Position numbers and translations under genes: made by a program
Notes under the pieces: model-generated
Databases searched by the model: none
What the model saw: the letters and a program-made list of their open reading frames with translations, nothing else
What the model was told of the DNA's origin: nothing
In this document: in pieces, positions 11,609-51,261 of the stretch
How positions within the stretch are numbered: position 1 is the first letter of the stretch
How the letters are laid out: each line of letters begins with the position of its first letter
From: an uncultured Limosilactobacillus sp.
GTDB taxonomy: Bacteria; Bacillota; Bacilli; Lactobacillales; Lactobacillaceae
Length of the DNA stretch: 56,399 bases
Assembly (NCBI GenBank): GCA_944327195.1
Contig: CALVGV010000012.1
Span: 1-56,399, forward strand
Direction: 5' to 3'

Positions 11609-11752
11609 GCTCCGCTCCGCGAAAAGCGCTGGGCCGTGACGATGGTGGGCACGACTTTGAGCCCCTTTGGGTCTCAAAGCTCGGCCTTTCACTAGGCGAT
11701 AAATCGCCAAGTGAAATTTCACCATCTTGGCCCGCGTTTTCGCTCCGCTCCG
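11609..11752 (+). repeat. Structured interspersed repeat R1 (class A)
   Basis: Outer stem GCG-GGCC / GGCCCGC, inner stem GATGGTG/CACCATC, hairpin TTTGAGCCC..GGGTCTCAAA, and hairpin TTTCACT-GGCGAT..ATCGCC-AGTGAAA. It is flanked on both sides by direct copies of CTCCGCTCCG. It begins four bases after the clpE stop codon and lies before the next terminator (12084-12122), so it is probably in the clpE 3' UTR. Confidence 0.85.
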
Positions 11753-11761
11753 ATGATAAAA

Positions 11762-11951
11762 GGCCTCCGGGGAGCAGCTGCTGGGAAACTAGAACGGCAC
11801 CCCTTGCGAATGTTACTTAGTTGGAGGCCGACCGGAGGAAGGACTCCGACTTAGAAACATTCCATGCGATAGCTGTCCAAGAACGAGGAGCTTGCGACAA
11901 GCGATTAGCGAACAGCGAACCGCAAGCTCCCAGGTCTGCTCCCCTCCGGCC
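11762..11951 (+). repeat. Rearranged copy of the structured repeat
   Basis: It has the class B ends GGCCTCCGGGGAGCAG (11762-11777) and CTGCTCCCCTCCGGCC (11936-11951), but the interior is unlike the other copies. An internal GGAGGCC (11823-11829) and a strong hairpin, GAGCTTGCG..CGCAAGCTC, suggest that two elements recombined or that one inserted into another. Confidence 0.6.
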
Positions 11952-12083
11952 AGTCAACTTTGCAGCAAATCTTCTCCTTATAGAGAGAATTAGAGGCTGC
12001 TGTATCCGATGTAGATGACTAGATGCTAGTTGCAAATAGCCACTTACACTAGCATCCCCTACTATTTAAAAATATCTACTCCT

Positions 12084-12122
12084 TGCAAAAGGGGCCCGCG
12101 CGATTTGCGCGAGCCCCTTTTT
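12084..12122. terminator. Bidirectional terminator between clpE and the SDR gene
   Basis: AAAAGGGGCTCGCGC and GCGCGGGCCCCTTTT arms (minus-strand reading), with A and T runs on both sides. It serves the SDR gene directly and could end clpE transcripts on the other strand. Confidence 0.75.
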
Positions 12123-12131
12123 GCTTGGCTG

Positions 12132-19683: not shown

Positions 19684-19849
19684 GGCCTCCGCGGGGGAGC
19701 TTCCGGGAGACTGGAACGGGGTGGGCACGACTTGAAGCCCACCGGAATCGCTTCGCTCTCCGGCGGTCTTCAAGCTCGGCCTTGTTCTAGGCGATAAATC
19801 GCCAAGAACAATTTCACCCCTGAGCTCCCGGGTCTCCCCCGCTCCGGCC
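19684..19849 (+). repeat. Structured interspersed repeat R2 (class B)
   Basis: Runs from GGCCTCC to CCGGCC, 166 bp. Outer stem CCGGGAG/CTCCCGG, inner stem GGGGTG/CACCCC, hairpin CTTGAAG..CTTCAAG with a long apical extension, and hairpin TTGTTCT-GGCGAT..ATCGCC-AGAACAA. It begins 22 bases after the regulator stop and lies before the terminator at 19959, so it is in the 3' UTR. Confidence 0.85.
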
Positions 19850-19958
19850 CGGCAGCGGTACGGTTCTTCGGCTGCTGATTGTCATTTGGCAACAACGCCC
19901 TAGCAAATCCATCCTAGTGGTAAGCAAGTTCTCGTTAACAAATCCTTCCCGGAAAACA

Positions 19959-22517: not shown

Positions 22518-25500
22518 CTAGTTTTCTTGCTTCTTGCGTGCTGCCCCACCGAGGCCGAGCAGACCGAGGGCCAGGCCAAGGAGGCCGAGGGTGGCCGCCG
22601 AGTGGTCGTCCCCGGTTTGCGGCAGCTGCTTCTGCTGAGTAGCAGTGGTTGCCGGAGTGCCACTTGCTTGCTTTGTGGCCGCCGGTTGGGTGCTGCTTGC
22701 GCTAGCCAGGCTGGTCGTTGGCTGCGCACTCGCCGAGGTCGACTGGCTGGCACCATTCTTGGTCCCATCGTTCGTCGGGGTGGCCGGTGCAGCGTCGTCC
22801 TTCTTTTCCGGAGTGGTCGATTGATCCTCTTCGGTTGACTCGGCCTGGTTGGTAGCCAAGGCTGCTTGGGCCGCAGTCAGAGCTGACAGGAGACTTTCGA
22901 CCGTTGCCTGGTCAGCATTGCTCCCGTCGGCGCTAGTAACCGTCTGGGCGTTGGCTACCGCTGCCTGGTAGGCGGCTTGGGCGGCCGCACTTGCCCCCTG
23001 GTAGGTTGCGCCGGCTTCGACAGTGGCCGCTTGGGCAACCGCGTTCTTGAGGGTAGCCATTGCCGCGTCCAGCTTCGTCGCCGTGGTCAGGGCCGCGGTG
23101 ATGCCACTTTCCGTGGTGGCTGCTTCGATCGCCGTCTGGCTGGCTTGCCACTGGGCGTTGTTGAGGTTGACCAGCTTACCCAGGGCAGCGATTGCCGTTT
23201 CCTTGGCGGTCGTCAGCTGGGCTTCCCCGTCAAGGGCCGCCTTGGCCTCGTTAATCGCCGTCGTGGCCGCCATCACCGTTGCCTCGTCCGCGTTTGGACC
23301 GGTGGTTGCCACGAGCTTTTCACCCGCCGCGATCGCCTGGTCGTAGGCGTCCTTGGCGCTTTGGCTGGCGTTTTCGTAGGCCACGCTCTGCTTGGTCGTC
23401 TCCGCATCCGCCAGGGCCGCCTCGAGGCTGGTCATCGCCGTGTTGACCTTGGTGGCGGTGTCTACGGCCGCCGTCATGGCCGTCGTGGTCTGGGCCGCTT
23501 CAACCGCGGTCTTGGCTGCAGCGGCCTGGGCCGGGTTGAGGGCGGTCAGCTTGGCCAGGGCAGTCAGGGCATTGCTCTTGGCAGTTGCCAGGTTCTGACT
23601 GCCGTCGAGCTTGCCGGCAGCACTAGTCAGGGCGGAAACCGCGGCGGCTACGCGATCGTTGTCGTTGGTTACCGTCGTGCCGGTTGCAATCGCGGTTGCG
23701 GTCGCGAGGGCCTGGTCGAAGGCCGTGACCGCGTCAGCACTGGCTTCCTGGTAGGCAACCGTCTTCTTGAGCTTGTCGGCCGCGGTGATTGCGTCCTTCA
23801 GGTTGCCCATCGTGGTGTTGAGGGTCGTCACCGTCGTCACGGCCGTGGTAACCTCGCTCGTCCCGTTGGCTTGGTTGATGGCGTCCGTGGCCGCCTGCTT
23901 CTGGGCGGTCGTCAGGTTGGTCAGCTTGGCGAGAGCCGCTAAGGCGTCATCCTTGGTGGACTTGAGGTTGGCGGCGCCGTCCAGGGCAGCCGTTGCCGCG
24001 GTCAATTCACCAGCCGCCTTGCTGATTGCTTGGGCGTCGTTGCTCGTCCCCTTCAGCAGGTCTTCGGCCGTTGCCAAGGCGGTCGTGAAGTTCTTCTTCG
24101 GGTCTGCCGTGACTTCGGTGTAGGCGGTGGTAGTTTGGGCATCCTTGGCGGCGGCAACGGCCTTCTTCAGGGTCGCCATCGCGTCGTCGAGGCTTGCCGC
24201 ATCCTTGTTGGCCTTGGCTACGGCTGCGCTATCAGTTGCCTTGGTAATGGCGTCCTTGGCCGCCGCCTTCTGGCTGGTCGTCAGGTTTGGCAAGGCGTCG
24301 ACCGCCGCCGTGGCCTGATCCTTAGCGGATGCTAAGTTTTGGTCGCCATCAAGGGCCGCCATCGCCTTGCCTAGTGCGGTGGTCTCCTGTTCAACCGTGG
24401 CCGGGTTGGTGACTACCGGCGTATCGGCGAGGAGGTTGGTGACTGCCGTCAGGGCCTGGTCGAAGGCCGCCTTCTTGGCCGGCGTTGCCTCGGTGTAGGC
24501 CGTGGTCTTGGCTACTTCCTTGGCGGCCGTGACTGCCGACCGGAGCGCGGCCATCTTACCGTCGAGGGTGGTGGCCGTCGTGACCGCCTCCTTGGCATCG
24601 CTCGTGGTAGCAGCCCCGGCAATCGCCGTCTTGGCCGCCTGCTTCTGGCCTGCCGTCAGGTTCGTCAGCTGGTCAAGGGCCGCCGTGGCTTCCTTTTTGG
24701 CGGCCTTGAGGGTAGCGTCGCCGTCGAGGTTGCTGGTGGCCGTCGTCAGGTTGGCAGCCGCCTTGCTGATCGCCTGGGCGTCGTTGCTCGTCCCCTTCAG
24801 TAGGTCTTTGGCCGCTGCCAAGGCGGTGGTGAAGTTCTCCTTCGGGCTGGCCGTGGCCTCGGTGTAGGCAGTGGTGTTCTGGGCCTTCATTGCCGCTTCG
24901 ACCGCGGCCTTCAGGCTGGCCATGCTGGTGTCGAGAGTCTTGGCGACGTCACCGGCCGTAGTGATTGCCTTCTCGTCCGTGGCCTTGGTGATGTTAGCCA
25001 CAGCCACTTCCTTTTGCGAATCAGTGAGGTTTGGCAAGGCGTTGACCGCCGTAATCGCCTGGTCCTTGGCTGCTTGAAGGACTGTGTCCCCATCAAGCTT
25101 TTCCTGGGCCGCCGTCAGGACACTAGCGTCATCCTTTACCACTGACCCATCATTGGTCTTGGTCTTCCCGTTCAAGATGGCTTCGGCTGCCGTGAGGGCA
25201 TCATCGAAGGTTGCCTTCGGCGTAGCCGTTGCCGCGGTGTAGGCCGGCGTGCCCTTGGCCGTGGTGGCCGCCGCAACTGCCTGCTTCAGGCTCCCCATGT
25301 CATCGTTGAGGGCCATGGCTTGGTCGCTAGCCGTGGTGATGGTTTCCGAGTCGGTAGCGCTGTTGATTGCGTCGGTGGCGGCTGCCTTTTGGTCCGTCGT
25401 CAGGTTGGTCAACTTGGCGAGGGCCGCGATCGCCTTGTCCTTGCCCCCCTGTAAGGAGGCGTCACCATCGAGGGCGCTCGTTGCCGCGATCAGGGTTGCG

Positions 25501-28500
25501 GTAGCCTTGGCCACCGTTTCACCATCACTCGTGTCCACGCTTCCAGAAAGGAGGTCGGCCGCCGTCGTCAGGGCGCTGTCGAAGGCCTGCTTTGGCGTGC
25601 TGGTTGCGGCAACGTAGGCCGGCTTGTCCTTGATCGCCGTGGCCGCCGCAACCGCCTGCTTCAGGGCCGCCATCTTGTCGTCCAGGTTAGTGGCCGCACT
25701 GGCCGCTTGATTCACCCCGGCGACCGTCGTTGCATCGGCAACCGCCTGCTTAGCCGCCGCAACTTGCTTGGTCGTCAGGTTGGTCAGGCCATCGATTGAC
25801 GACAAGGCCGTGTCCTTGGCATTGGCCAACACGGTGTCACCGTCGAGACCGTTCGTTGCGGCCGTCAACTTAGTAGCCGCGTCGGTAACGGCACTGCTGT
25901 CACTGGTGCCGGTAGTACCGTCCGCAATCGCCTTTGCCGCGGTCAAGGCATCATCGAGAGTCGGTTGGTTCGTCGCTTCGTTGTAGTTCGTCGTTGACTT
26001 GGCATTCTCAGCCGCGGTGATTGCCTTCTTCAGGGTCCCCATCGTGGTGTTTAGCTTGGAGGCCTGGCCCTTGGCCGTGGTGACCGCCGTCGTGCTGGTT
26101 GCCTGGTTGACTGCGTCCTTAGCCGCCGTCTTCTGGGCATCGGTCAGGTCGGTCAGGGCATCGATTGACGAAAGGGCCGTGTTTTTGGCGTTAGCCAACA
26201 CGGTGTCACCGTCAAGACCATTCGTTGCGGCCGTCAACTTGGTGACGGCGTCCGTAACGGCAATGCTGTCACTCGTGTCGGTGGTGCCGTCCGCAATCGC
26301 CTTTGCCGTGGTCAAGGCATTGTCAAGGGTCGACTGGTTTGTTGCTTCGTTGTAGTTAGTCGTCGACTTGGCGTTCTCGGCCGTAGTGATTGCTGACTTG
26401 AGGATGCTCATGTTTCCATCGAGGGTCGTCGCATTCTTAGCCGCGATCGTTGCCGCATTTGCGGTGGTGACAGATTCAACGGCAGACTTGGCCGCCGACT
26501 TCTGCGCGTCGGTCAGGTTAGTCAAGGCATCAATTGACGAAGTAGCGGCACTCTTGGCATTGGCCAGTACGGTGTCACCGTCGAGACCATTCGTTGCGTT
26601 CGTCAACTTGGTGGCAGCGGCCGTAACGGCACTGCTGTCACTGGTGTCGGTGGTGCCGTTCATAATCGCCTTTGCCGAAGTCAGGGCATCATCAAGGGTT
26701 GCTTGGTTCGTCGCTTCGTTGTAGTTCGTCGTTGACTTGGCGTTTTCGGCCGCCGTGATCGCTGACTTGAGGGTGCCCATGGTACCATCAAGGGTCGTAG
26801 CAGCGCTAGAGGCACTCGTTGCCGCTGAAGAAGTAGTCGCGGATTCAACGGCAGACTTGGCTGCCGACTTTTGGGCGTCGGTCAGGTTAGTCAAGGCATC
26901 GATTGCCGTCGTTGCCGCGCTCTTGGCGTTGGCCAGAACAGTGTCGCCGTCAAGGCCATTCATTGCGTTCGTCAGCTTGGTAGCCGCGTCGGTAACGGCA
27001 CTGCTGTCGTTGGTATCAGTGGTTCCGTCCGCAATTGCCTTTGCCGCGGTCAAAGCTTCGTCAAGAGTTGCTTGGTTCGTCGCTTCACCGTAGTCAGTCG
27101 TTGACTTGGCATTTTCGGCCGCGGTGATTGCTGACTTGAGGGTACCCATGGTGCCATCGAGGGTCGTGGCGGCACTGGAGGCACTCGTTACTGCATCCGC
27201 GGTAGTCGCAGATTCAATAGCAGACTTTGCTGCGGCCTTTTGGGCATCGGTTAAGTTAGTCAAGGCATCGATTGCTGACGTTGCCGCGCTCTTTGCGTTG
27301 GCCAGCACAGTGTCACCGTCGAGACCATTTGTTGCGGCCGTCAACTTGGTGGCCGCGTCGGTAACGACACTGCTGTCATTGGTATCAGTGGTACCGTCCG
27401 CAATTGCCTTCGCCGCAGTTAAGGCATCGTCGAGGGTCGATTGGTTCGTCGCTTCGTTGTAGTTGGTCGTTGACTTGGCGTTTTCGGCCGCGGTGATTGC
27501 TGACGTGAGGGTCCCCATAGTGCCATCCAGGGTCGTTGCAGCACTGGAAGCACTCGTTACTGCATCCGCGGTAGTCGCAGCTTCGACAGCAGACTTAGCC
27601 GCCGACTTCTGAGCATCAGTTAAGTTAGTCAAGGCATCGATTGCCGCGGTAGCTGAACTCTTGGCGTTGGTCAAAACAGTATTACCATCGAGTGCACTCG
27701 TCGCATTCGTTAATGCGGTCGTGGCCGCCGTAACTGCACTACTGTCACTCGTGTCATTCGTTCCATTAGCGATTGCTTGCGCCGCATTCAACGCGTCATC
27801 AAGAGATGCTTTGTTCGTTGCCGCGCTGTAGCTCGTCGTATCCTTAGCACTTTCGGCCGCGGTAATTGCCTTTTTGAGATCGCCCATGTTCCCGTCGAGG
27901 GTCGTGGCAGCACTCGCCGCGCTTGTTGCGTCACTTGAAGTGGTAGCGGACTCCACTGCAGACTTGGCCGCCGACTTCTGCGCATCGGTCAAGTTAGTCA
28001 GGGCATCGATTACCGTCGTTGCCGCGCTCTTGGCGTTGGCCAGAATGCTATCGCCATCGAGGCCATTCGTTGCCTTTGTCAGCTTAGTGGCGGCATCCGC
28101 CACGGTACTGCTGTCGCTAGTGTCGGTGGTACCGTCCATAATTTCCTTCGCCGCAGTCAAGGCGTCATCAAGAGTTGCTTTATTCGTTGCCTCGCTGTAG
28201 TTGGTCGTATTCTTAGCACTCTCGGCCGCCGTAATCGCCGCCTTGAGGTCGCTCATGTTGCCATCAAGGGTTGTGGCATCACTGGCCGCACTCGTTGCTG
28301 CTGAAGCAGTCGTTGCGGCGGCCACAGCAGACTTCGCCGCGGACTTTTGGGCGTCGGTCAGGTTGGTCAAGGCGTCAATTGCCGAAGTAGCGGCACTCTT
28401 GGCGTTGGCTAAAGTAGAGTCACCATCAAGCGAATTCGTTGCATTTGTTAACGCAGTCGTGGCCGCGGAAACCATACTACTGTCGCTCGTGTCGGTTGTC

Positions 28501-31500
28501 CCATCAACGATTGCTTGCGCCGCAGTCAATGCGTCATCAAGGGTTGATTGGTTCGTTGCTTCGCTGTAGTTGGTCGTGTTCTTGGCACTCTCGGCTGCCG
28601 CGATTGCCGCCTTGAGGTCACTCATGTTTCCATCGAGGGTCGTCGCATCGCTAGCTACACTCGTCGCCGCTGAAGCAGTAGTCGCAGATTCAACGGCAGA
28701 CTTCGCCGCCGACTTTTGCGCATCAGTCAAGTTGGTCAACGCATCGATTGCCGATGTTGCCGCGCTCTTCGCATTGGTCAGAACGCTGTTACCGTCGAGA
28801 CCATTCGTTGCGTTCGTCAGCTTGGTTACCGCATCCGCAACCGCACTACTATCACTAGTGTCGTTCGTCCCATCAACGATTGCTTGCGCCGCGGTCAATG
28901 CGTCATCAAGGGTTGATTGGTTCGTTGCTTCGCTGTAGTTGGTCGTGTTCTTGGCACTCTTGGCTGCCGCGATTGCCGCCTTGAGGTCGCTCATGCTCCC
29001 ATCAAGGGTCGTCGCATCACTCGCTGCACTAGTCGCCGCAGTAGCAGTAGTTGCGGCTTCGGCAGCAGATTTCGCCGCCGACTTTTGCGCATCGGTCAAG
29101 TTGGTCAACGCGTCAATCACCGAAGACGCCGCGCTCTTTGCGTTAGCCAACACAGTGTCACCATCAAGAGCGTCCGTCGCTGTCGTTAATGCGGTCGTTG
29201 CCGCCGTTACCACACTACTGTCACTCGTATCAGTCGTCCCGTCGGTAATTTCCTTCGCCGCAGTCAATGCGGCATCAAGGGCTGCCTGGTTCGTTGCCTC
29301 GCTGTAGTTAGTCGTGTCCTTAGCGCTTTCGGCCGCCGTGATCGCCGCCTTGAGGTCGCTCATGTTCCCATCGAGAGTCGTCGCAGCACTGGCCGCACTC
29401 GTTGCCGCAGAGGAAGTAGTTGCGGCTTCCGTGGCAGACTTAGCTGCGGATTTCTGAGCGTCGGTCAGGTTAGTTAGCGCATCGATCGCCGAAGACGCTG
29501 CGCTCTTCGCATTGGCCAAGATGGTATCGCCATCAAGCGCACTCGTCGCCGTCGTCAATGCGGTCGTCGCCGCCGTAACCGCACTACTGTCGCTTGTATC
29601 AGTCGTCCCGTCGGCAATTTCCGTCGCCGCAGTCAGTGCAGCATCAAGAGCTTTTTGGTTCGTTGCCTCGCTGTAGTTGGTCGTGTTCTTGGCGCTTTCG
29701 GCCGCCGTGATCGCCGCCTTGAGGTCGCTCATGTTCCCATCGAGAGTCGTCGCATCGTTGGCCGCACTCGTCGCCGCAGTAGCAGTAGTCGCAGATTCAA
29801 CGACAGACTTCGCCGCTGACTTTTGGGCGTCGGTCAGGTTGGTCAAGGCATCGATTGCCGAAGCCGCTGAACTCTTCGCATTGGCCAAAGTAGAGTCACC
29901 ATCAAGCACACTCGTTGCACTCGTCAATGCGGTCGTTGCCGCCGTAACTACACTACTGTCGCTAGTGTCGGTCGTGCCATCGGCAATCGCTTGCGCCGCC
30001 GTCAATGCTTCGTCAAGAGCTGCTTGATTCGTCGCCTCAGTGTAGTTCGTCGTATTCTTAGCACTTTCGGCTGCCGTGATTGCCGCCTTAAGATTGCTCA
30101 TGTTCCCATCGAGGGTCGTCGCATCACTGGCCGCACTCGTCGCAGCTGAAGAAGTAGTCGCGGCCGCCGCAGCCGACTTGGCTGCGGACTTCTGGGCGTC
30201 AGTTAAGTTGGTCAGGGCATCAATTGCCGAAGCCGCCGAGCTCTTCGCGTTAGCCAAGACGGTGTCACCATCAAGCGCACTCGTTGCCGTTGTCAATGCG
30301 GTCGTTGCCGCCGTAACTGTACTGCTGTCGCTCGTGTCGGTTGTCCCATCGGCAATTTCCGTAGCCGCAGTCAGTGCAGCATCAAGAGCTGCCTGGTTCG
30401 TTGCCTCGCTGTAGTTAGTCGTATTCTTGGCGTTTTCGGCCGTAGTAATCGCCGCTTTGAGGATACCCATGTTCCCATCAAGGGTCGTGGCGTCGCTAGC
30501 TGCACTTGTTGCTGCATCCGCGGTGGTAGCAGCTTCAGCAGCAGACTTAGCTGCGGACTTTTGGGCGTCGGTCAAGTTAGTTAAGGCATCAATTGCCGAG
30601 GCCGCCGAGCTCTTGGCGTTGGCCAAGACGGTGTCACCATCAAGCGCACTCGTCGCACTCGTCAATGCTGTCGTCGCAGCCGTTACCGTACTGCTGTCGC
30701 TCGTATCAGTCGTCCCGTCGGCAATTTCCTTAGCCGCAGTCAATGCGGCATCAAGGGCTAACTGGTTCGTTGCCTCGCTGTAGTTCGTCGTATTCTTAGC
30801 ACTTTCAGCTGCCGTAATTGCCGCCTTGAGGTCGCTCATGTTCCCATCGAGGGTCGTGGCTGCACTAGCTGCACTCGTTGCCGCGGAGGAAGTAGTTGCA
30901 GATTCAACGTTAGACTTGGCTGCCGACTTTTGAGCATCGGTCAGATTAGTCAAGGCATCGATTGCCGACGTTGCTGCGCTCTTCGCGTTGGCAAGCACAG
31001 TATCACCATCGAGATCATTCGTTGCGTTCGTCAACTTGGTAGTTGCGGCCGTAACGACACTGCTGTCACTGGTATCAGTGGTGCCATCCGAAATTGCCTT
31101 CGCCGTAGTCAACGCCTCATCGAGAGTTGATTTATTCGTTGCCTCGGTGTAGCTAGTCGTACCCTTAGCACTCTCGGCCGCCGTGATCGCCGCCTTAAGG
31201 CTACTCATGTTGCCATCGAGAGTCGTGGCTGCACTAGCTGCGCTCGTCGCCGCTGAGGAAGTAGTTGCGGCTGCCGCGGCGGACTTGGCTGCCGACTTTT
31301 GGGCGTCGATCAGGTTAGTCAGCGCATCGATCGCCGAAGCCGCCGAGCTCTTCGCGTTAACCAAGACGGTATCGCCATCAAGCGTACTCGTCGCCGTCGT
31401 CAATGCGGTTGTGGCCGCCGTTACCGTACTGCTGTCGCTCGTATCAGTCGTCCCGTCGGCAATTTTCTTCGCCGCAGTCAATGCGGCATCAAGGGCTGCT

Positions 31501-33419
31501 TGGTTCGTTGCCTCGCTGTAGTTCGTCGTCTCCTTGGCACTCTCGGCCGCCGTGATTGCCGCCTTAAGGCTACTCATGTCCCCATCGAGAGTCGTGGCTG
31601 CACTCGCCGCACTCGTCGCCGCTGAGGAAGTAGTTGCGGCTGCCGCGGCCGACTTCGCCGCCGACTTTTGGGCGTCAGTTAAGTTAGTCAGGGCATCGAT
31701 CGCCGAAGCCGCCGAGCTCTTTGCATTGGCCAAAACGGTGTCGCCATCAAGTGCACTCGTCGCCGTCGTCAATGCGGTTGTGGCCGCCGTTACCGTACTA
31801 CTGTCGCTCGTATCGGTCGTTCCGTCGGCAATTTCCTTCGCAGTAGTCAATGCGGCATCAAGGGCTGACTGGTTTGTTGCCTCGCTGTAGTTAGTCGTGT
31901 TCTTAGCGCTTTCGGCCGCCGTGATTGCCGCCTTGAGGCTACTCATGTCCCCATCCAGGGTCGTGGCGTCGCTGGCCGCGCTCGTCGCAGCCGACGCGGT
32001 CGTTGCAGCTGTCGCGGCGGACTTTGCCGCCGACTTCTGGGCGTCGGTCAGGTTGGTCAGGGCGTCGATTGCGGAACTAGCGGCGCTCTTGGCTACGTTC
32101 AGGTCCCCATCCAGGGCCGAAGTGGCGTTGGCCAGGTTGGTTACCGCCGTCGTTACCTCGTCCTGGGTTGCACTCGAATTATTCAAAACCGTCTTGGCGG
32201 CGGTCAGGGCCGTATCGTAGGCCGACTTCAAAGCGTCGCTGGCTTGCAAGTAGTTGTCACTCGCCGTCGTCGTTGCGCTCTCGTCAACCGCGCTTTGAAG
32301 GGCGGTCTTGTCGACGGCTGATTCGGCCTTTGCCGTCTCCTCAAGGCTGGTGATGGCGTCGTCACTCGCGCTGTTGTTGATGAGGTCCGCCAGTTCACTG
32401 ATCTCATCCCCACTGTTGATCAAAGACGAGGTGTTCTTAATTGCGTCTTCCACCTTGGAAACCGCGTCAGAAACCGACTGGCTATTCGGGTACTCTTCCT
32501 GCAGCTTCTTCAATTTATCCAGTTGATCGTTCAGGGCCGCCTGGGTCTTGGTGGTCAGGTCCGAGGAAACCCGTGAAATCACTTCGTCAATCGTTGCGTC
32601 TGTTAAGCTCGGAACCGACCCAGTAATCGCGCTGTCCAACCACGCTGCCCCGTAGTTAACGTTTTCCAAGCCGAGCGATGAAATCACCGACGGGGCCCCG
32701 TTTGCGTAGGCAACAAGCTTGGTCATCCCGTCAAGGGAAACGTTGGTCGAGGTGCTGGCCGAGGTGTTAACCGCGTAGAAGTTGTCGTACCAGCCCTGCG
32801 CGTTCTTGGTTACCCCCGCCTTGCTGGTATAAGTCAGGCTAGAGAGGTCGGTGCTGTTGGTGCTTTCGGTGGCCAGGGCTAACAGGGCGTTGGTTGCCTT
32901 GACCGCACTTGTTGACCCGCTCGCCGAGTTAGTTTCACTCGTTGAGCTAGCCGCACTCGTAACCTGGTCACTGCTGCTAGTGACATTGCTTTCGCTGGCA
33001 CTGGTCGATTGGGCACTAGCCGTTGTTGCCTGGGCGCTGCTTGCCGAAGCGCTACTTGCACTCGCACTAGTTTGACTCGCGGTTTCACTCGTGGCCGAAC
33101 TCGTTGACGTGGCTACCCCCACCGCCGGGCTGGCCGCCGCACTGGCACTACTCGTTGTCGCAGGACTGGCCGCACTCAGGGTAACACTAGCGGCCGACAG
33201 ATTGGTTGTCGCCGACGTGGTGCTGGTCGTCGAATCAGTCGTTGCCGAGGTGGCTGTCACGTCCGCTTGGGCGTGCGTCGCGCCGGTCCCCAGGTAGAAG
33301 GTGGTCGACAGCAAGACTGAGGCCACCCCCACCGATAACTTCCGCAGGGCGTAGTGAGGCACCTGCCGCTTTGCTTCGCGCCGTTGCCGTTCTGCAAGAT
33401 TTGCCTTTGAAAGTCGCAT
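22518..33419 (-). CDS. Giant LPXTG cell-wall protein with 25 GA/FIVAR repeats (Ebh-like)
   Basis: A 3633-residue cell-wall-anchored protein. A YSIRK-type signal peptide (HYALRKLSVGVASVLLST) is followed by a Ser/Thr/Ala-rich stretch to ~200, and a unique domain ~200-400 (GWYDNFYAVNTS..., NYGAAWLDSAIT). Then come 25 units of about 123 residues. Each has a GA module (AIDALTNLTDAQKSAAKSA) and a FIVAR-like module (ATTLDGNMSDLKAAITAAES). A Glu/Thr/Ser-rich linker and LPQTGDD, a hydrophobic helix and RKKQEN end the protein. Units 1-16 are nearly identical; 17-25 diverge. This is the layout of Ebh/Emb matrix-binding adhesins. ATG at 33419 follows GGAGGATTCGAA. Ligand unknown. Repeat number may vary by strain or assembly. 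Confidence 0.92.
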   Translation of the reverse strand: MRLSKANLAERQRREAKRQVPHYALRKLSVGVASVLLSTTFYLGTGATHAQADVTATSATTDSTTSTTSATTNLSAASVTLSAASPATTSSASAAASPAVGVATSTSSATSETASQTSASASSASASSAQATTASAQSTSASESNVTSSSDQVTSAASSTSETNSASGSTSAVKATNALLALATESTNSTDLSSLTYTSKAGVTKNAQGWYDNFYAVNTSASTSTNVSLDGMTKLVAYANGAPSVISSLGLENVNYGAAWLDSAITGSVPSLTDATIDEVISRVSSDLTTKTQAALNDQLDKLKKLQEEYPNSQSVSDAVSKVEDAIKNTSSLINSGDEISELADLINNSASDDAITSLEETAKAESAVDKTALQSAVDESATTTASDNYLQASDALKSAYDTALTAAKTVLNNSSATQDEVTTAVTNLANATSALDGDLNVAKSAASSAIDALTNLTDAQKSAAKSAATAATTASAATSAASDATTLDGDMSSLKAAITAAESAKNTTNYSEATNQSALDAALTTAKEIADGTTDTSDSSTVTAATTALTTATSALDGDTVLANAKSSAASAIDALTNLTDAQKSAAKSAAAAATTSSAATSAASAATTLDGDMSSLKAAITAAESAKETTNYSEATNQAALDAALTAAKKIADGTTDTSDSSTVTAATTALTTATSTLDGDTVLVNAKSSAASAIDALTNLIDAQKSAAKSAAAAATTSSAATSAASAATTLDGNMSSLKAAITAAESAKGTTSYTEATNKSTLDEALTTAKAISDGTTDTSDSSVVTAATTKLTNATNDLDGDTVLANAKSAATSAIDALTNLTDAQKSAAKSNVESATTSSAATSAASAATTLDGNMSDLKAAITAAESAKNTTNYSEATNQLALDAALTAAKEIADGTTDTSDSSTVTAATTALTSATSALDGDTVLANAKSSAASAIDALTNLTDAQKSAAKSAAEAATTADAATSAASDATTLDGNMGILKAAITTAENAKNTTNYSEATNQAALDAALTAATEIADGTTDTSDSSTVTAATTALTTATSALDGDTVLANAKSSAASAIDALTNLTDAQKSAAKSAAAAATTSSAATSAASDATTLDGNMSNLKAAITAAESAKNTTNYTEATNQAALDEALTAAQAIADGTTDTSDSSVVTAATTALTSATSVLDGDSTLANAKSSAASAIDALTNLTDAQKSAAKSVVESATTATAATSAANDATTLDGNMSDLKAAITAAESAKNTTNYSEATNQKALDAALTAATEIADGTTDTSDSSAVTAATTALTTATSALDGDTILANAKSAASSAIDALTNLTDAQKSAAKSATEAATTSSAATSAASAATTLDGNMSDLKAAITAAESAKDTTNYSEATNQAALDAALTAAKEITDGTTDTSDSSVVTAATTALTTATDALDGDTVLANAKSAASSVIDALTNLTDAQKSAAKSAAEAATTATAATSAASDATTLDGSMSDLKAAIAAAKSAKNTTNYSEATNQSTLDDALTAAQAIVDGTNDTSDSSAVADAVTKLTNATNGLDGNSVLTNAKSAATSAIDALTNLTDAQKSAAKSAVESATTASAATSVASDATTLDGNMSDLKAAIAAAESAKNTTNYSEATNQSTLDDALTAAQAIVDGTTDTSDSSMVSAATTALTNATNSLDGDSTLANAKSAATSAIDALTNLTDAQKSAAKSAVAAATTASAATSAASDATTLDGNMSDLKAAITAAESAKNTTNYSEATNKATLDDALTAAKEIMDGTTDTSDSSTVADAATKLTKATNGLDGDSILANAKSAATTVIDALTNLTDAQKSAAKSAVESATTSSDATSAASAATTLDGNMGDLKKAITAAESAKDTTSYSAATNKASLDDALNAAQAIANGTNDTSDSSAVTAATTALTNATSALDGNTVLTNAKSSATAAIDALTNLTDAQKSAAKSAVEAATTADAVTSASSAATTLDGTMGTLTSAITAAENAKSTTNYNEATNQSTLDDALTAAKAIADGTTDTNDSSVVTDAATKLTAATNGLDGDTVLANAKSAATSAIDALTNLTDAQKAAAKSAIESATTADAVTSASSAATTLDGTMGTLKSAITAAENAKSTTDYGEATNQATLDEALTAAKAIADGTTDTNDSSAVTDAATKLTNAMNGLDGDTVLANAKSAATTAIDALTNLTDAQKSAAKSAVESATTSSAATSASSAATTLDGTMGTLKSAITAAENAKSTTNYNEATNQATLDDALTSAKAIMNGTTDTSDSSAVTAAATKLTNATNGLDGDTVLANAKSAATSSIDALTNLTDAQKSAAKSAVESVTTANAATIAAKNATTLDGNMSILKSAITTAENAKSTTNYNEATNQSTLDNALTTAKAIADGTTDTSDSIAVTDAVTKLTAATNGLDGDTVLANAKNTALSSIDALTDLTDAQKTAAKDAVNQATSTTAVTTAKGQASKLNTTMGTLKKAITAAENAKSTTNYNEATNQPTLDDALTAAKAIADGTTGTSDSSAVTDAATKLTAATNGLDGDTVLANAKDTALSSIDGLTNLTTKQVAAAKQAVADATTVAGVNQAASAATNLDDKMAALKQAVAAATAIKDKPAYVAATSTPKQAFDSALTTAADLLSGSVDTSDGETVAKATATLIAATSALDGDASLQGGKDKAIAALAKLTNLTTDQKAAATDAINSATDSETITTASDQAMALNDDMGSLKQAVAAATTAKGTPAYTAATATPKATFDDALTAAEAILNGKTKTNDGSVVKDDASVLTAAQEKLDGDTVLQAAKDQAITAVNALPNLTDSQKEVAVANITKATDEKAITTAGDVAKTLDTSMASLKAAVEAAMKAQNTTAYTEATASPKENFTTALAAAKDLLKGTSNDAQAISKAAANLTTATSNLDGDATLKAAKKEATAALDQLTNLTAGQKQAAKTAIAGAATTSDAKEAVTTATTLDGKMAALRSAVTAAKEVAKTTAYTEATPAKKAAFDQALTAVTNLLADTPVVTNPATVEQETTALGKAMAALDGDQNLASAKDQATAAVDALPNLTTSQKAAAKDAITKATDSAAVAKANKDAASLDDAMATLKKAVAAAKDAQTTTAYTEVTADPKKNFTTALATAEDLLKGTSNDAQAISKAAGELTAATAALDGAANLKSTKDDALAALAKLTNLTTAQKQAATDAINQANGTSEVTTAVTTVTTLNTTMGNLKDAITAADKLKKTVAYQEASADAVTAFDQALATATAIATGTTVTNDNDRVAAAVSALTSAAGKLDGSQNLATAKSNALTALAKLTALNPAQAAAAKTAVEAAQTTTAMTAAVDTATKVNTAMTSLEAALADAETTKQSVAYENASQSAKDAYDQAIAAGEKLVATTGPNADEATVMAATTAINEAKAALDGEAQLTTAKETAIAALGKLVNLNNAQWQASQTAIEAATTESGITAALTTATKLDAAMATLKNAVAQAATVEAGATYQGASAAAQAAYQAAVANAQTVTSADGSNADQATVESLLSALTAAQAALATNQAESTEEDQSTTPEKKDDAAPATPTNDGTKNGASQSTSASAQPTTSLASASSTQPAATKQASGTPATTATQQKQLPQTGDDHSAATLGLLGLALGLLGLGGAARKKQEN
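26200..32110 (-). repeat. Tandem 369-bp repeats in the giant surface protein gene
   Basis: About sixteen near-identical units of 369 bp (123 codons); the period is visible from identical landmarks at 26368, 26737, 27106 and at 28201, 28570, 28939. Units further towards the 3' end (22.9-26.2 kb) keep the period but diverge. The pattern fits recent homogenisation of the 5' part by recombination. Confidence 0.85.
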
Positions 33420-33467
33420 TTCGAATCCTCCCATTCATCCGAAAAAATACTAATTACGGTTTCACGT

Positions 33468-37190: not shown

Positions 37191-37269
37191 TTCGAGCATG
37201 TCCCCTATCACTTCCGGATTAAAGGAGGGGGCATCCCAATAGGAGAACTGCGCCCGAGGGGTAACACCT

Positions 37270-37416
37270 GGCCGGAGCGGAGCAGACCCACGGGCTCAAT
37301 GGGGAGACTCCCTTAGCGGCTTTGCCGCTTAGGGAGGGCCGAGCTTTGAGACTCTGCAGGAGGCTCAAAGTCGTGCCCCCCATGTTCCAGCCCGCGGAAG
37401 CTGCGGAGCGGAGGCC
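37270..37416 (-). repeat. Structured interspersed repeat R3 (class C)
   Basis: Plus-strand GGCCGGAGCGGAG to GGAGGCC. Outer stem CGGGCT/AGCCCG, inner stem ATGGGG/CCCCAT, hairpin CTCCCTTAGCGGC..GCCGCTTAGGGAG, and hairpin CTTTGAG..CTCAAAG. Oriented minus, like R4 beside it and the arsR-ATPase genes. Confidence 0.85.
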
Positions 37417-37506
37417 ACTCCGCTCTCCCCATTTTCCCTTAGTCAGAGCGAAGTGAACGGGGTACATCCCCCCAACAGAAGATCCGCGTCCAAGGGGTAC
37501 CACCTC

Positions 37507-37658
37507 AGACCCGGGAGCTCAGGGGTGAAATTCCACTTGGCGATTTATCGCCTAGTGGAAGGCCGAGCTTGAAGACCGCCGGAGAGCAACGCGATTCCGG
37601 GGGGCTTCAAGTCGTGCCCACCCCGTTCCAGTCTCCCGGCAGCTGCTTCCCGGAGGCC
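37507..37658 (-). repeat. Structured interspersed repeat R4 (class B)
   Basis: Outer stem CCGGGAG/CTCCCGG, inner stem GGGGTG/CACCCC, hairpin TTCCACT-GGCGAT..ATCGCC-AGTGGAA (a compensated variant), and hairpin CTTGAAG..CTTCAAG. The GGAGGCC end lies eight bases from the arsR stop. The opposite end lacks the usual GGCCGG. Confidence 0.8.
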
Positions 37659-37666
37659 ATCCCGCG

Positions 37667-41693: not shown

Positions 41694-41838
41694 GCCTCCG
41701 GGGAGCAGCTTCCGAGAGACTGGAACGGGGTGGGCACAACTTTGAGCCCGTTCCGGTCTCAAAGCTTGGCCTTGTTCTAAGCGATAAATCGCTAAGAACA
41801 ATTTCACCCCTGAGCTCCCGGGTCTGCTCCCCTCCGGC
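41694..41838 (+). repeat. Structured interspersed repeat R5 (class B)
   Basis: GCCTCCGGGGAGCAG at the left and CTGCTCCCCTCCGGC at the right. Inner stem GGGGTG/CACCCC, hairpin CTTTGAG..CTCAAAG, hairpin TTGTTCT-AAGCGAT..ATCGCTA-AGAACAA (a variant, compensated on both arms). It lies 72 bases upstream of the Rgg-like gene, in its probable promoter region, and is the left member of an inverted pair with R6. Confidence 0.85.
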
Positions 41839-42133
41839 GGTGGTACCACTACCACTCTCTGCCGTTGGATGGAGGAGGGCTCCGGTGTCCCGGAAATTCT
41901 CCCGGCTGAAGAGCTACTTTTGCTCCACTTTGGCCAACAGCGATCGGAAATCCAGGTACCAACCGGTAAGTGGCGGCCCGCTTCTCGTTAGTGAATGCGG
42001 AGCCGATCCAATCCCGCCTAGCAGTAAAGCCACACCCCGTGGAGTCTACTCAATCCGCGTTGATGGGGCGGCCACCACTCGCGGAGGTTGTTGCCCCTTC
42101 ACAAGCAGTTGTATTCGGCGCACTGCGACGCCG
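41839..42133. other. Spacer between inverted repeats R5 and R6
   Basis: 295 bp without a convincing gene. The right part (42088-42118, GTTGTTGCCCCTTCACAAGC...) is clearly similar to 48009-48039 in the R7-R8 spacer, so the spacer belongs to the same element family. Confidence 0.6.
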
Positions 42134-42279
42134 GGCCGGAGCGGAGGAAAATGCGGGCCAAGATGGTGAAATTTCACTTGGCGGTTTACCGCCTAGTGAA
42201 AGGCCAAGCTTTGAGACCCGGAGGGGCTCAAAGTTGTGCCCACCATCGTCACGGCCCGCAATTTTCCGGAGCGCAGGCC
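42134..42279 (-). repeat. Structured interspersed repeat R6 (class A)
   Basis: GGCCGGAGCGGAG at the left, CAGGCC at the right. Outer stem GCGGGCC/GGCCCGC, inner stem GATGGTG/CACCATC, hairpin TTTCACT-GGCGGT..ACCGCC-AGTGAAA, hairpin CTTTGAG..CTCAAAG. Its right end lies 46 bases past the sufB stop (minus strand), where no ordinary terminator is visible. Confidence 0.85.
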
Positions 42280-42325
42280 CTCCGCTAGGCTACTTTTCGC
42301 GCAGGCCCCATTAACCTAATCAATT

Positions 42326-43732
42326 CTACCCGATCGAGCCTTCCATTTCAAAGCTGATCAGCCGGTTCAACTCAACCGCGTACTCCATCGGCAGCTGCTT
42401 GGTGAATGGTTCCACGAAGCCCATGATGATCATCTCGGTCGCCTTTTGCTCCGAAATCCCGCGGCTCATCAGGTAGTAGAGCTGCTCCTCGGAAATCTTG
42501 GAAACCTTGGCCTCGTGCTCCATCGCCACGTTGTCGTTGTCGATTTCGTTGTAGGGGATCGTGTTGGATGACGACTGGTCGTCCATGATGATCGTGTCGC
42601 ACTCGACGTGGGCCTTGGAGCCGGAGGAGTCCTTGGTGAAGCGGACCGTCCCCCGGTAGTCGGTTGCCCCACCGGTCTTTGAGATCGACTTGGAAACGAT
42701 CGAGCTCGAGGTGTTCGGCGCGTTGTGGATCATCCGCGCCCCCGAGTCCTGGTGAATCCCGTTGGAGGCGACGGCGATCGACAGCATCGTCCCGCGGGCC
42801 CCCTCGCCGTTGAGGTAGACCGACGGGTACTTCATCGTCACCTTGGAGCCGAGGTTACCGTCAACCCACTCCATGGTGGCGTTCTTGTCGGCGGCGGCCC
42901 GCTTGGTTTCCAGGCTGTAGACGTTGTCAGACCAGTTCTGGATCGTCGTGTAGCGGCAGTAGGCGTCCTTCAAGACGTTGACTTCCACCACGGCGGCGTG
43001 GAGGCTGTCGGACGAGTAGTTCGGCGCCGTGCAGCCTTCCACGTAGTCGACGCTGGCCCCCTCGTCGACGATGATCAGGGTCCGCTCGAACTGACCGGTG
43101 TTTTCGGCGTTCAGCCGGAAGTAGGACTGGATCGGCGTCTTGGTCTTGACCCCCTTCGGCACGTAGATGAAGGAGCCACCGGACCAAACCGCCCCATTCA
43201 AGGCCGCGAACTTGTTGTCGGCCGGCTTGACCAGCTTGCCGAACCACTTCTTGAAGAGGTCCGGGTACTCGCGGAGGGCGGTGTCGGTATCGGTGAAGAT
43301 GATGCCAAGCTTTTCAAACTCGTTCTTCATGTTGTGGTAGACCACTTCCGACTCATACTGGGCCGAGGAGCCGGCCAAATACTTCCGTTCGGCCTCCGGC
43401 ACCCCGAGGCGGTCGAAGGTCTTCTTCAGGTCCTCGGGCACGTCGTCCCAGTCGCGGTACTTCTTGTCGGTCATCTTTTGGTAGTAGAGCATGTTTTTCA
43501 AGTCGAGCTCGCTCAGGTCGGGGCCAAACTTGGGCATTGGCAGCTTCTTGTAGATTTCGTAGGACTTGAGCCGGTAATCGAGCATCCACTGTGGTTCGTG
43601 CTTTTCGGCCGAGATCGCCCGCACGATCTCCTCGGTCAGCCCCCGGCCGGTAGAGAAGACCGGGGTGATGTCGTCGTGGAAGCCGAATTCGTAGTCGTCC
43701 TTGTTTTTTAAGATTTCGTTTGCGTTTGCCAT
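42326..43732 (-). CDS. sufB: Fe-S cluster assembly protein SufB
   Basis: A 468-residue scaffold component of the SufBCD complex. The N-terminus ([43 protein letters not shown]) and the beta-helix core with [20 protein letters not shown] (cluster cysteine region) and [16 protein letters not shown] are typical; the C-terminus ends with [25 protein letters not shown] at 43732 follows GAGG. Its start is one base after the sufU stop. Last gene of sufCDSUB. Confidence 0.96.
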
Positions 43733-47734: not shown

Positions 47735-47885
47735 GGCCTCCGGGGAGCAGCTTCCGCGGGCTGGAACATGGGGGGCGCGACTTTGAGCCCTAGCTTCGCC
47801 AGGTCTCGAAGCTCGGCCCTCCCTAAGCGGCAGAGCCGCTAAGGGAGTTTCCCCATTGAGCCCGTGGGTCTGCTCCCCTCCGGCC
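47735..47885 (+). repeat. Structured interspersed repeat R7 (class C)
   Basis: GGCCTCCGGGGAGCAG at the left and CTGCTCCCCTCCGGCC at the right. Outer stem GCGGGCT/AGCCCGT, inner stem ATGGGG/CCCCAT, hairpin CTTTGAG..CTCGAAG (one G-T pair), hairpin CTCCCTAAGCGGC..GCCGCTAAGGGAG. Left member of the inverted pair R7-R8 between sufC and feoA. Confidence 0.85.
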
Positions 47886-48055
47886 CCGGCAACGATGTGC
47901 TTTCTCGGCAACAAATTGGTAGAAGATTCAATTCTTGCCTCCGCTATTAGGAACAAGGCGTCGCTCCGTGGTGAATTGCTCACCCGGCTACGATCACGAC
48001 TTGTGGTAATTGTTGCCCACTCACAAGCAGTTGCATTCGCAACCTTGCGTTGCCG
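47886..48055. other. Spacer between inverted repeats R7 and R8
   Basis: 170 bp, no gene. Its ends extend the pair symmetry (CCCGGCAACG at the left, CGTTGCCGGG at the right). The stretch 48009-48039 matches the R5-R6 spacer. Confidence 0.6.
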
Positions 48056-48206
48056 GGCCGGAGCGGAGCGAAAATGCGGGCCAAGATGGTGAGATTTCAC
48101 TTGGCGGGTTTCCCGCCTAGTGAAAGGCCAAGCTTTGAGACCCAGAAGGGGGCTCAAAGTTGTGCCCACCATCGTCACGGCCCGCAATTTTCGCGGAGCG
48201 GAGGCC
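48056..48206 (-). repeat. Structured interspersed repeat R8 (class A)
   Basis: GGCCGGAGCGGAG to GGAGCGGAGGCC. Outer stem GCGGGCC/GGCCCGC, inner stem GATGGTG/CACCATC, hairpin TTTCACT-GGCGGG..CCCGCC-AGTGAAA, hairpin CTTTGAG..CTCAAAG. It ends 40 bases before the feoA start, too close for a promoter in between, so it probably lies in the feoAB leader. Confidence 0.85.
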
Positions 48207-48246
48207 CCACCACTAACCAGACTTCGATCACAAGGAGGAGATTATC

Positions 48247-48450: not shown

Positions 48451-48452
48451 CT

Positions 48453-50438
48453 ATGGAAATTGCCCTGATTGGAAACCCGAATACCGGGAAAACCACCCTC
48501 TTCAACAGCCTCACCACCAACTACGCCACCGTCGGCAACTGGACCGGGGTGACGGTCGAAAAGAAGATGGGCCAGCTCAAAAACGCCGCCGCCAAGCTGA
48601 TTGACCTACCCGGCGTCTACTCGCTGACCCCGCTCACCAAGGACGAGGAGGTCGTCACCCGCTACCTGCTAGAAAACCGGCCCGATCTGATCCTAAACGT
48701 CACCAACGCCGGCCAGCTGAAACGCAACCTCCTGCTGACCCTGGAGGTGCGCGAGTTCGGCCAGCCGATGATCTTGAACCTCAACATGATCGACGACCTC
48801 AAGCGCCAGGGGGTGGCCTTCGACTTCGCCACCCTTAGCGCCCGCCTCGGTTGCCCGGTGATGGCCACCAACGCCCGCAACCAGGACGGGATCAAGGCCT
48901 TAAACGCCGCCCTGGTCAAGCAACCCGCCGAACAGGAGCCGCTGGTCCTCGACTACCCGCCGATGGTCAAGGAGGCGATCCGCCAGGCCAGCCAGGCCCT
49001 GGTCAAGGACTACGACTACCAGGAGGCCGACGCCCGCTGGCTGGCGATCCAGTACATGAACAAGAACAAGGTCGTCCGCCGCTACGCCGCCTTCAAGGAC
49101 CTCAAGCCCCTGCTGTCGATGCTGGCCTACTACGACGCCCAGCACTTCGACGACAAGATCTTCAACACCCGGCTCGACTTCATCGAGGACACCCTGGCGG
49201 CGGCGCGGGAGAAGCTCAGCGACCAGCAGCCGCGCGAGTTCTCCAACCAGGTCGACAAGGTGATCACCAACCCGATCCTCGGTCTGCCGATCTTCTGCCT
49301 GATCTTCCTCTTGATCTTCAAGCTCTCCTTCGACTGGGTCGGCACGCCGATTTCCGACCTGCTCGACTCCTTCATCTCCGGGCCCTTCTCGACCGCCGTT
49401 AACCACTGGCTGACCGCCGCCGGGGCCCTGCCGGTCTTGCGCTCGCTGGTGGTCAACGGCCTGATCGCCGGGGTCGGCGGGGTGCTGGTCTTCGTGCCGC
49501 AAATCTTCACCCTCTTCGCCTGCATCTCGATTTTGGAAGACTCGGGTTACATGGCGCGGGCGGCGCTGGTGACCGACCGGCTGATGCAGCTGATCGGCCT
49601 CAATGGCAAGTCCTTCATCCCGCTGATCATCGGCTTTGGCTGCAACGTCACCGGGATCATGGCGGCCCGGACGATCGAGCAGCCCAAGGAGCGGCTGGTC
49701 ACCACCCTGATCTCGCCCTTCATGTCCTGCTCGGCCCGCCTGCCGATCTACGGCCTGGTGGTGGCCGCCTTCTTCCCTAAGCACCAGGCCCTGATCGTGC
49801 TGTCGATCTACCTACTGGGGATCGTGGTCGCCCTGGCGGTGGCCAAGGGCTACCAGCTCTTCTTCCACACCTCCGACAGCTCGGTCTTCATCGTTGAGCT
49901 GCCCGAGTACCACCTGCCACGGCTGGACGTGATCTGGCATAGCACCTGGGACAAGAGCAAGGGCTTCGTCCACAAGGCGGGGACGGTGATCTTTGCCGGG
50001 ACGGTGCTGATCTGGCTGATGTCCTCCTTTGGCCTCTCCGGCTACACCACCGACCCGGCCAACAGCTTCGCCGCCCTGCTGGGCAAGGCCCTCCTGCCGC
50101 TCCTGGCCCCGCTGGGGATCACCCACTGGGAGATCATCTCGGCCCTCTTCACCGGGGTGCTGGCCAAGGAGGTCATCACCTCGAGCATGATGGTGATGTT
50201 CCACTCGGCCAACCAGGCGGCCCTGATCGGCGCCCTCGGCTCCTTCATGACGCCGGTGGCCGCCTACGCCCTCTTGGCCTTCATCCTCCTCTACTCGCCC
50301 TGCTTTGCCACTTTGGGGACGATCAAGCAGGAAACCGGGTCGACCAAGTGGATGCTCTGGTCACTGATGCTGAGCCTCCTGATTGGCTACGGGGTTTCGA
50401 TGCTGATCTACGTTGGGGGAACGCTGCTACTTGGTTAG
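48453..50438 (+). CDS. feoB: Ferrous iron transporter FeoB
   Basis: A 661-residue GTPase-coupled Fe(II) importer. G1 is GNPNTGKTTLFN near residue 8, G2 region TVGNWTGVTVEKK, G3 DLPGVYSL near residue 52, and G4 NMID near residue 112. Two gate motifs are present: IIGFGCNVTGIMAARTIE near residue 387 and SPFMSCSARLPIYGLV near residue 423. A second set of membrane helices follows. FeoC is absent. Length is at the short end for FeoB. Repeat R9 begins one base after its stop. Confidence 0.94.
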   Translation: MEIALIGNPNTGKTTLFNSLTTNYATVGNWTGVTVEKKMGQLKNAAAKLIDLPGVYSLTPLTKDEEVVTRYLLENRPDLILNVTNAGQLKRNLLLTLEVREFGQPMILNLNMIDDLKRQGVAFDFATLSARLGCPVMATNARNQDGIKALNAALVKQPAEQEPLVLDYPPMVKEAIRQASQALVKDYDYQEADARWLAIQYMNKNKVVRRYAAFKDLKPLLSMLAYYDAQHFDDKIFNTRLDFIEDTLAAAREKLSDQQPREFSNQVDKVITNPILGLPIFCLIFLLIFKLSFDWVGTPISDLLDSFISGPFSTAVNHWLTAAGALPVLRSLVVNGLIAGVGGVLVFVPQIFTLFACISILEDSGYMARAALVTDRLMQLIGLNGKSFIPLIIGFGCNVTGIMAARTIEQPKERLVTTLISPFMSCSARLPIYGLVVAAFFPKHQALIVLSIYLLGIVVALAVAKGYQLFFHTSDSSVFIVELPEYHLPRLDVIWHSTWDKSKGFVHKAGTVIFAGTVLIWLMSSFGLSGYTTDPANSFAALLGKALLPLLAPLGITHWEIISALFTGVLAKEVITSSMMVMFHSANQAALIGALGSFMTPVAAYALLAFILLYSPCFATLGTIKQETGSTKWMLWSLMLSLLIGYGVSMLIYVGGTLLLG

Positions 50439-50439
50439 G

Positions 50440-50585
50440 GGCCTCCGCTCCGGAAAATTGCGGGCCGTGACGATGGTGGGCACAACTTTGAGCCCCTCCG
50501 GGTCTCAAAGCTTGGCCTTTCACTAGGCGGTAAACCGCCAAGTGAAATTTCACCATCTTGGCCCGCATTTTCCTCCGCTCCGGCC
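50440..50585 (+). repeat. Structured interspersed repeat R9 (class A)
   Basis: GGCCTCCGCTCCGG to CTCCGCTCCGGCC. Outer stem GCGGGCC/GGCCCGC, inner stem GATGGTG/CACCATC, hairpin CTTTGAG..CTCAAAG, hairpin TTTCACT-GGCGGT..ACCGCC-AGTGAAA. Direct copies of CTCCGCTCCG flank the structure. It begins immediately after the feoB stop. Confidence 0.87.
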
Positions 50586-51111
50586 CGTCGGCAATCATCA
50601 TCACAGATCGTTATGAGGAAAAATGCAGCCATCCTCCAAAGGCCGTCAGCGGTCACCAGTTCTTAGAAACAATAGGAAATTAGGATCGCCAGCGCTAGGC
50701 ATCTTCCAGTCCTCCTTCCTAGTCATAAACTACTTTGACCGGATCCGAAGGACAACGTCAATCATCAAAGGTAAAAGCCACAAAGCGTTACTAGCAGCAT
50801 TCCATTAAGTCCTTTTTAACTGTTTATTTCGTCACTCGTTATTCCGCAACTAGCTCGTCCGTCTCGCGGAACCTAGCGTTGGCTATGGCTCATCCCCATC
50901 CGACGCCTAGAAAAGCTTCGCTGCCGGGGCCGGAGCGGAGCCGACGCAGCGTCAATTATCATCACGGGCAATTGTGCGGATATATGTACTTTTTACCCAG
51001 TAGGATCACCATCTCACGCCAACTATTTTGATCAAATCGGAGTACAGCTACCTCTAAATATTCTCACCCCCCTGCCCCCTCTCAGCGGCCGCGAGTTACA
51101 CTACCGTTGCC
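50586..51111. other. Spacer between inverted repeats R9 and R10
   Basis: 526 bp, no convincing gene; base composition is more AT-rich than the genes. A lone copy of the repeat end GGCCGGAGCGGAG is at 50928-50940, so the spacer itself contains a remnant. The right end GTTGCCGGCC matches the R7-R8 spacer end. Confidence 0.55.
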
Positions 51112-51261
51112 GGCCGGAGCGGAGCGAAAACGGGGGCCAAGATGGTGAAATTTCACTTGGCGATTTATCGCCTAGTGAAAGGCCGAGTTCTGAGACCCGT
51201 TCCGGGGCTCAGAATCGTGCCCACCATCGTCACGGCCACCGCTTTTCGCGGAGCGGAGGCC
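51112..51261 (-). repeat. Structured interspersed repeat R10 (class A)
   Basis: GGCCGGAGCGGAG to GGAGGCC. Outer stem GGGGGCC/GGCCACC (imperfect), inner stem GATGGTG/CACCATC, hairpin TTTCACT-GGCGAT..ATCGCC-AGTGAAA, and hairpin TTCTGAG..CTCAGAA, a compensated change relative to the usual CTTTGAG..CTCAAAG. Confidence 0.85.

Follow-up and report, generated by a model that had tools for sequence, protein, structure and literature searches.

A family of branched, compensated repeats in Lactobacillaceae that often forms convergent pairs and may mark the ends of small mobile DNA

We analyzed a stretch of 56,399 nucleotides from an uncultured Limosilactobacillus species (assembly GCA_944327195.1, contig CALVGV010000012.1; hereafter the window), which carries ten copies, R1 to R10, of a structured repeat with branched stems. 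A covariance model built from 47 cores and searched against the window at E<=0.1 gave exactly ten matches, one for each copy, at the places named in the original prediction, and the P2, P3 and P4 arms quoted there are present in the sequence. The starts that it proposed correspond to the outer stem; the modelled core itself spans 125-144 nt in the window. Because eight of the ten window copies were already in the seed alignment, the window matches alone are non-independent evidence. Independent evidence comes from R6, R8 and the matches in other genomes.

All copies share one fold. From outside to inside, it consists of an outer stem P1, an internal loop, P2, and then the hairpins P4 and P3. 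The internal loop is mostly TGGAAC against TGA, and in type A copies of the source genome it is GTGAC against TT. The base of P4 pairs GGC with GCC and next to it either CAA with TTG or CGA with TCG; a single bulged base on each side is usual. GGCC-AGCTT and GTCGTGCCC, formerly described as fixed unpaired segments, are in fact mostly paired and form this base. P3 has a loop of four bases and contains an A.A mismatch. In 100 parsed cores, the mismatch was retained in all 100 and the loop was TAAA in 96, although the finder pattern partly favours both features and copies in genome G181 carry other loops; the internal loop was TGGAAC or TGGAGC in 75 of the 100. One copy of the source genome (L032) has a fully complementary P4 base, as read from the sequence. 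Folded as single-stranded DNA, four window copies gave z-scores of -8.3 (R9), -6.1 (R10), -5.7 (R5) and -4.2 (R3).

Pairing is kept far beyond shuffled controls, in agreement with the proposal of one conserved branched fold with compensated stems. In a sequence-only alignment of the 47 cores, drawn from six species, 94.9% of cells were paired, compared with 76.9% after shuffling, and sliding the partner by 1-3 columns lowered pairing to 31-48%. Both sides changed in 27 of 34 pairs, and changed cells were two-sided in 290 cases and one-sided in 15. Further pair types were no more numerous in this alignment than in shuffles (55 vs 54.9). The covariation persisted once copies from more genomes were added: among 59 copies from 39 loci, both sides changed in 33 of 34 pairs, with a covariation score of 0.616 against 0.166 for shuffles, in an alignment fitted by the covariance model and hence leaning towards the fold.

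To describe the distribution of the family, the model was searched across Lactobacillaceae, as had been proposed, and it matched 123 of 397 sampled genomes in 16 of 40 genera. Across the order, a sample of 295 genomes included 13 with a match, of which 12 were Lactobacillaceae and one gave a single weak match in another family. Five genomes searched to depth held 107 (G181), 104, at least 150 (G368), 12 and 9 copies. One sequence pattern retrieved 52 stretches from a named-genome collection, in five other species: Lapidilactobacillus achengensis, L. luobeiensis, Companilactobacillus suantsaicola, C. zhongbaensis and Candidatus C. pullicola. In the source genome, blast searches with a type A and a type B query gave 57 and 56 matches in overlapping sets, and the model found 75 copies in the window together with 46 further stretches (175,036 bases in all), with identities among copies reaching 99%. 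Within the genus, a blastn search of 32 other genomes returned nothing, and one genome other than the source (G296) yielded two copies to the model. No match was obtained in phages with one copy from another genome, in viral contigs with one pattern, or in plasmids with one copy from the source genome; copies from two other genomes matched 4 and 2 plasmid records, every match being partial.

The family, unrecognised in the original prediction, also appears to be undescribed. Rfam (release 15) gave no match in the window at the gathering score, and six matches in eight loci at E<=5, none of them over a core by coordinates; one chance-level match (E 1.1; L020 759-843) adjoins a copy. A T-box was considered and rejected. 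Some 3' tails hold GGTGGTACC, which we take to be T-box-like, and tails with a sequence like AGGTGGTACC (one mismatch allowed) occur at window positions 41838-41847 (+), 37260-37269 (-) and 37496-37505 (-) as well as in copies from other species. This sequence resembles the T-box antiterminator motif, yet Rfam scans of the window and the eight loci gave no T-box match. Lactobacillaceae include many food and probiotic species. A repeat that is named neither in Rfam nor in the open-licence literature searched, where we found no name or description of it, is present in nearly a third of the sampled genomes of this family and reaches at least 100 copies in three of the five searched to depth.

The copies are real, and many of them form convergent pairs, an arrangement overlooked earlier and represented in the window by R5/R6, R7/R8 and R9/R10. 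We defined neighbours as copies within 900 bases of each other and called them convergent when a plus-strand copy is followed by a minus-strand copy, so that the 5' ends point outward. In G181, where 100 of the 107 matches were used, all 24 close neighbours were convergent. Among loci from other genomes the figure was 18 of 18, one of these being a G181 pair already counted; the one remaining pair in that locus set is tandem and situated in a locus of the source genome. Model matches in the source genome gave 17 convergent neighbours out of 24, with five minus-minus and two plus-plus. Divergent neighbours were absent from the model-based sets, namely the loci from other genomes and the stretches of the source genome. 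Partners also tend to differ in type. All 20 fetched pairs of the 24 in G181 joined different types (12 a/b, 5 c/d and 3 a/c), with no same-type pair where 5.3 were expected (p 0.003), and the 17 convergent pairs of the source genome comprised 13 A/B, 4 A/A and no B/B. The many convergent pairs suggest that the unit is a pair and not a motif that stands alone. In Lapidilactobacillus, paired copies lie within composite islands of about 720 bases that have a conserved middle part (L107 2082-2807 and 4377-5100; dozens of places in G438).

Table 1. Repeat copies and associated features in the window, with limits on the forward strand and matches to the covariance model.
Feature	Position	Strand	Model match	Description
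R1	11609..11752	+	11626-11751	Type A (GTGAC/TT internal loop); without the 3' tail of other copies
Broken copy	11760..11951 (limits by eye)	+		Type B, adjoining R1; 5' arm to 11804, inner part replaced by the second repeat, 3' arm 11924-11951; arms matched by the type B blast query at 11763-11797 and 11925-11950
Second structured repeat	11805..11923	+		About 118 nt; start and middle motifs at one window place, end by eye
R2	19684..19905	+	19702-19845	Type B; long P4 loop and 3' tail
R3	37267..37415	-	37274-37399	Type B variant (ATGGGG/CCCCAT P2)
R4	37497..37660	-	37497-37640	Type B; tandem with R3 (same strand), not a convergent pair
R5	41694..41843	+	41711-41835	Type B; left member of convergent pair R5/R6
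R6	42134..42285	-	42138-42262	Type A; right member of convergent pair R5/R6
R7	47735..47900	+	47752-47881	Type B variant; left member of convergent pair R7/R8
R8	48054..48212	-	48060-48188	Type A; right member of convergent pair R7/R8
R9	50434..50634	+	50457-50581	Type A; left member of convergent pair R9/R10; begins at the end of open frame 48453-50438
R10	51112..51267	-	51116-51243	Type A; right member of convergent pair R9/R10

Copies are intergenic, and their 5' end often lies within 160 nt of a gene. For the 20 of 34 cases in the source genome with the next gene on the same strand, the median distance from the 5' end to it was 77 bases. With crude open-frame calls, a copy shared the strand of the gene on its 5' side in 50 of 82 cases, a weak bias; the count was limited to cores flanked on both sides by a called gene within 1200 bases, and the rest of a set of 111 was dropped. 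Immediately beyond the 5' end, the sequence was G+T-rich in five species (0.66-0.92, compared with 0.45-0.66 further out). The open frame on the minus strand at window positions 22518-33434, 3638 codons long, contains a direct repeat of 369 bases in at least 17 copies, and by its layout we would guess a large repetitive surface protein.

Several features of these loci bear on turnover. The second structured repeat of about 118 nt, which interrupts the broken copy beside R1, is also inserted in family copies of the source genome at L016, L020, L035 and L038-L041, at a few positions. In five of these (L035 and L038-L041) it occupies about the same place in P4 while the copies sit at different genomic sites, which suggests that a copy takes its cargo along when it spreads. 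In one region compared between the related species L. achengensis and L. luobeiensis, the flanking blocks are 94 and 97% identical and a third block is 82% identical, and two intergenic islands are unlike in both length and content. Several copies of the source genome are preceded by the 5' half of another copy, with GGGC at the junction; in G181, the units L214 and L215 adjoin a truncated copy. Copies behind half-copies fit insertion into old copies followed by loss, an order of events that we read from the arrangement of the remnants. In C. suantsaicola, four copies (L088, L099, L106 and L118) are interrupted at an identical point near one end by a sequence common to all four, as though the repeat were the target of an insertion sequence.

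To ask at which level the fold is maintained, we compared wobble pairs, since RNA made from one strand is expected to prefer G.U over A.C, whereas a DNA fold or RNA from both strands is not. From the 111 cores, one of which (window 42834-42945) is a false positive of the pattern, 100 were parsed; acceptance required five of the seven outer P3 pairs to be Watson-Crick, and P4 likewise, so that G.T and A.C were treated alike. The 2190 cells of P3 and P4 comprised 2162 Watson-Crick pairs, 7 G.T, 10 A.C and 11 others. In model-fitted alignments of P2-P4, G.T and A.C numbered 21 and 21 of 1790 (alignment A5, which overlaps the seed set, for example where L130 repeats L088), 24 and 26 (A4), and 14 and 27 (A3), and the balance holds in the multi-genome set. 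P1, which aligned more poorly, contained a few G.T. By comparison, 20 distinct tRNAs of the same genome had 413 Watson-Crick and 29 G.U among 442 pairs, where the absence of A.C is uninformative because the tRNA program possibly reports nothing but standard pairs, and the p value of 4e-17 for this comparison is not to be taken literally because copies from one species are non-independent. G.T being no commoner than A.C favours a fold at the DNA level, or two-strand RNA, over ordinary one-strand RNA. The original prediction of selection on structure in RNA or single-stranded DNA is thereby refined: the structure is kept, and these two options are favoured. For other families of repeats, the same count offers a cheap way to tell structure at the DNA level from that of one-strand RNA.

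A structured RNA element of a cis-regulatory, mRNA-stabilising or terminating kind, possibly transcribed from both strands between genes, would account for the strong fold and its covariation, for the frequent closeness of the 5' end to a gene and for the prevailing TAAA loop of P3. We nevertheless consider it unlikely, given that the tRNAs contain the G.U pairs that the repeats hardly show (although two-strand RNA could still avoid wobble), that copies occur in both orientations with respect to the gene next to their 5' end, and that more than 100 copies are found in three of five genomes with no Rfam match. Compensated arms could even arise without selection if template switching copied one hairpin arm onto the other. 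Arm copying would give the predominantly two-sided changes that we counted, as well as the fully complementary P4 base of L032, but it would erase irregular features such as the A.A mismatch of P3 and the TGGAAC/TGGAGC loop, which most or all parsed cores retain, and it leaves copy number and orientation unexplained; we regard it as improbable. Little more than a slim chance, in our estimation, attaches to the idea that these are REPINs proper, or miniature elements of the IS200/IS605 type, moved by a Y1 (RAYT-like) transposase. In showing inverted doublets, singlets and compensated hairpins, they match the layout described for REPINs (PMC3116915), and Y1 (PF01797) is modestly enriched in carriers of the family (61 of 123, compared with 79 of 274 non-carriers). 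Against this, PF01797 was undetected in 62 of the 123 carriers, including the copy-rich G181 and G368 as well as G103 and G309, and Y1 was likewise undetected in C. zhongbaensis, although the enzyme may have been lost after the spread; moreover, the arms are branched and not simple hairpins of 20-40 bp.

The reading that we consider probable is a small non-autonomous mobile DNA, organised comparably to REPINs, whose two ends are formed by these repeats. What the data show directly is the pairing and its convergent orientation, the mixing of types, the Watson-Crick compensation and the copy numbers; the scarcity of G.T, the retained A.A mismatch, the near-identical copies of the source genome, the second repeat shared by five copies at different sites and the differing intergenic islands also speak for this reading. 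The unit would be a convergent pair of branched palindromes, with 5' ends outward, tails facing inward and usually two different sequence types, and it would spread as a whole. We infer that each end is recognised in its folded DNA form, either as a single strand exposed during replication or as an extruded cruciform, by an enzyme other than a reverse transcriptase or the Y1 transposase of REPINs, and that recognition could proceed through the conserved irregular features, namely the TGGAAC/TGA loop, the bulges of P4 and the A.A mismatch of P3. Should the pair prove to be a mobile unit, there would be one more enzyme acting on folded DNA to look for. The broader claim, that these repeats constitute a family-wide class of miniature mobile DNA with two different branched ends, recognised in folded form by such an enzyme and compensated in near-strict Watson-Crick fashion across about a third of sampled Lactobacillaceae, is put forward more tentatively, and we think it somewhat less likely than not to hold in full.

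Several observations weigh against mobile paired ends. Neither transposition nor excision was observed, a clean empty site was not found, and a target-site duplication is not defined for any unit. No clear duplication emerged from the outer flanks of 20 units; in a comparison of the flanks on the two sides for similarity, the mean score was 21.9 within units and 18.6 between them (standard deviation = 5.3). Many copies are single, the 7 non-convergent close neighbours of the source genome are tandem, and tandem runs occur among the copies listed for G134. RNA made from both strands would penalise wobble pairs too, and T.G recurs at one P2 position in 11 of 57 copies of alignment A5. The search for a moving enzyme adds to these points. 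On a plasmid of Levilactobacillus brevis (NZ_CP033886.1; L169 3990-5535), one copy lies just downstream of an ISLre2-type transposase gene annotated as ISLca4 family, and the flanks of L154 and L158 match the ISLre2 arrangement by eye, but this sole physically linked transposase (PF06782) was undetected in 7 of 10 carriers and was rejected as the mover. Inspection by eye of five more distant convergent pairs in G181 found ordinary-looking open frames and no enzyme gene between them, so that an autonomous copy in these intervals was rejected as well, and the 25 largest clusters of neighbouring open frames, also judged by eye, contained no mobiliser-like gene. A reverse transcriptase, as expected of a SINE-like retroelement, was set aside because PF00078 was undetected in 5 of 6 carriers, the source genome included, and present in G309. 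Neither Y1, reverse transcriptase nor ISLre2 explains the family as a whole.

Several known systems resemble the family in part. BOX elements of Streptococcus pneumoniae are modular, structured, intergenic repeats, a likeness by description only, and to our knowledge the convergent-pair layout is not part of their description. The attC sites of integrons conserve their fold while their sequence varies and keep certain irregular bases of the stem unchanged, which is the pattern expected of sites recognised as folded DNA. This likeness, too, is one of description, and unlike attC sites the present repeats are branched and do not lie in cassette arrays. Bacterial miniature inverted-repeat transposable elements (reviewed in PMC10969869) are likewise short, intergenic and multi-copy with inverted ends, but for our family no target-site duplication is defined, no parent insertion sequence was found, and structure is kept more than sequence between species. 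The closest parallel is with REPINs, which are REP doublets forming hairpins and which occur (PMC3116915) as inverted doublets and singlets with compensated hairpins. Like them, the present family has two inverted repeats as its unit, is intergenic and of high copy number, shows compensated changes and includes singles beside pairs. It differs from that description in that the ends are branched cores of about 125-145 nt with conserved bulges and a mismatch instead of simple hairpins of 20-40 bp, that partners are usually of different types, and that Y1 was detected in only half of the carriers. REPINs are thus a known mechanistic analogue, although the family does not qualify as a member on account of the enzyme. 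Because the REPIN layout was matched but the enzyme and the short hairpin were not, we describe the family as REPIN-like, with branched ends of mixed type.

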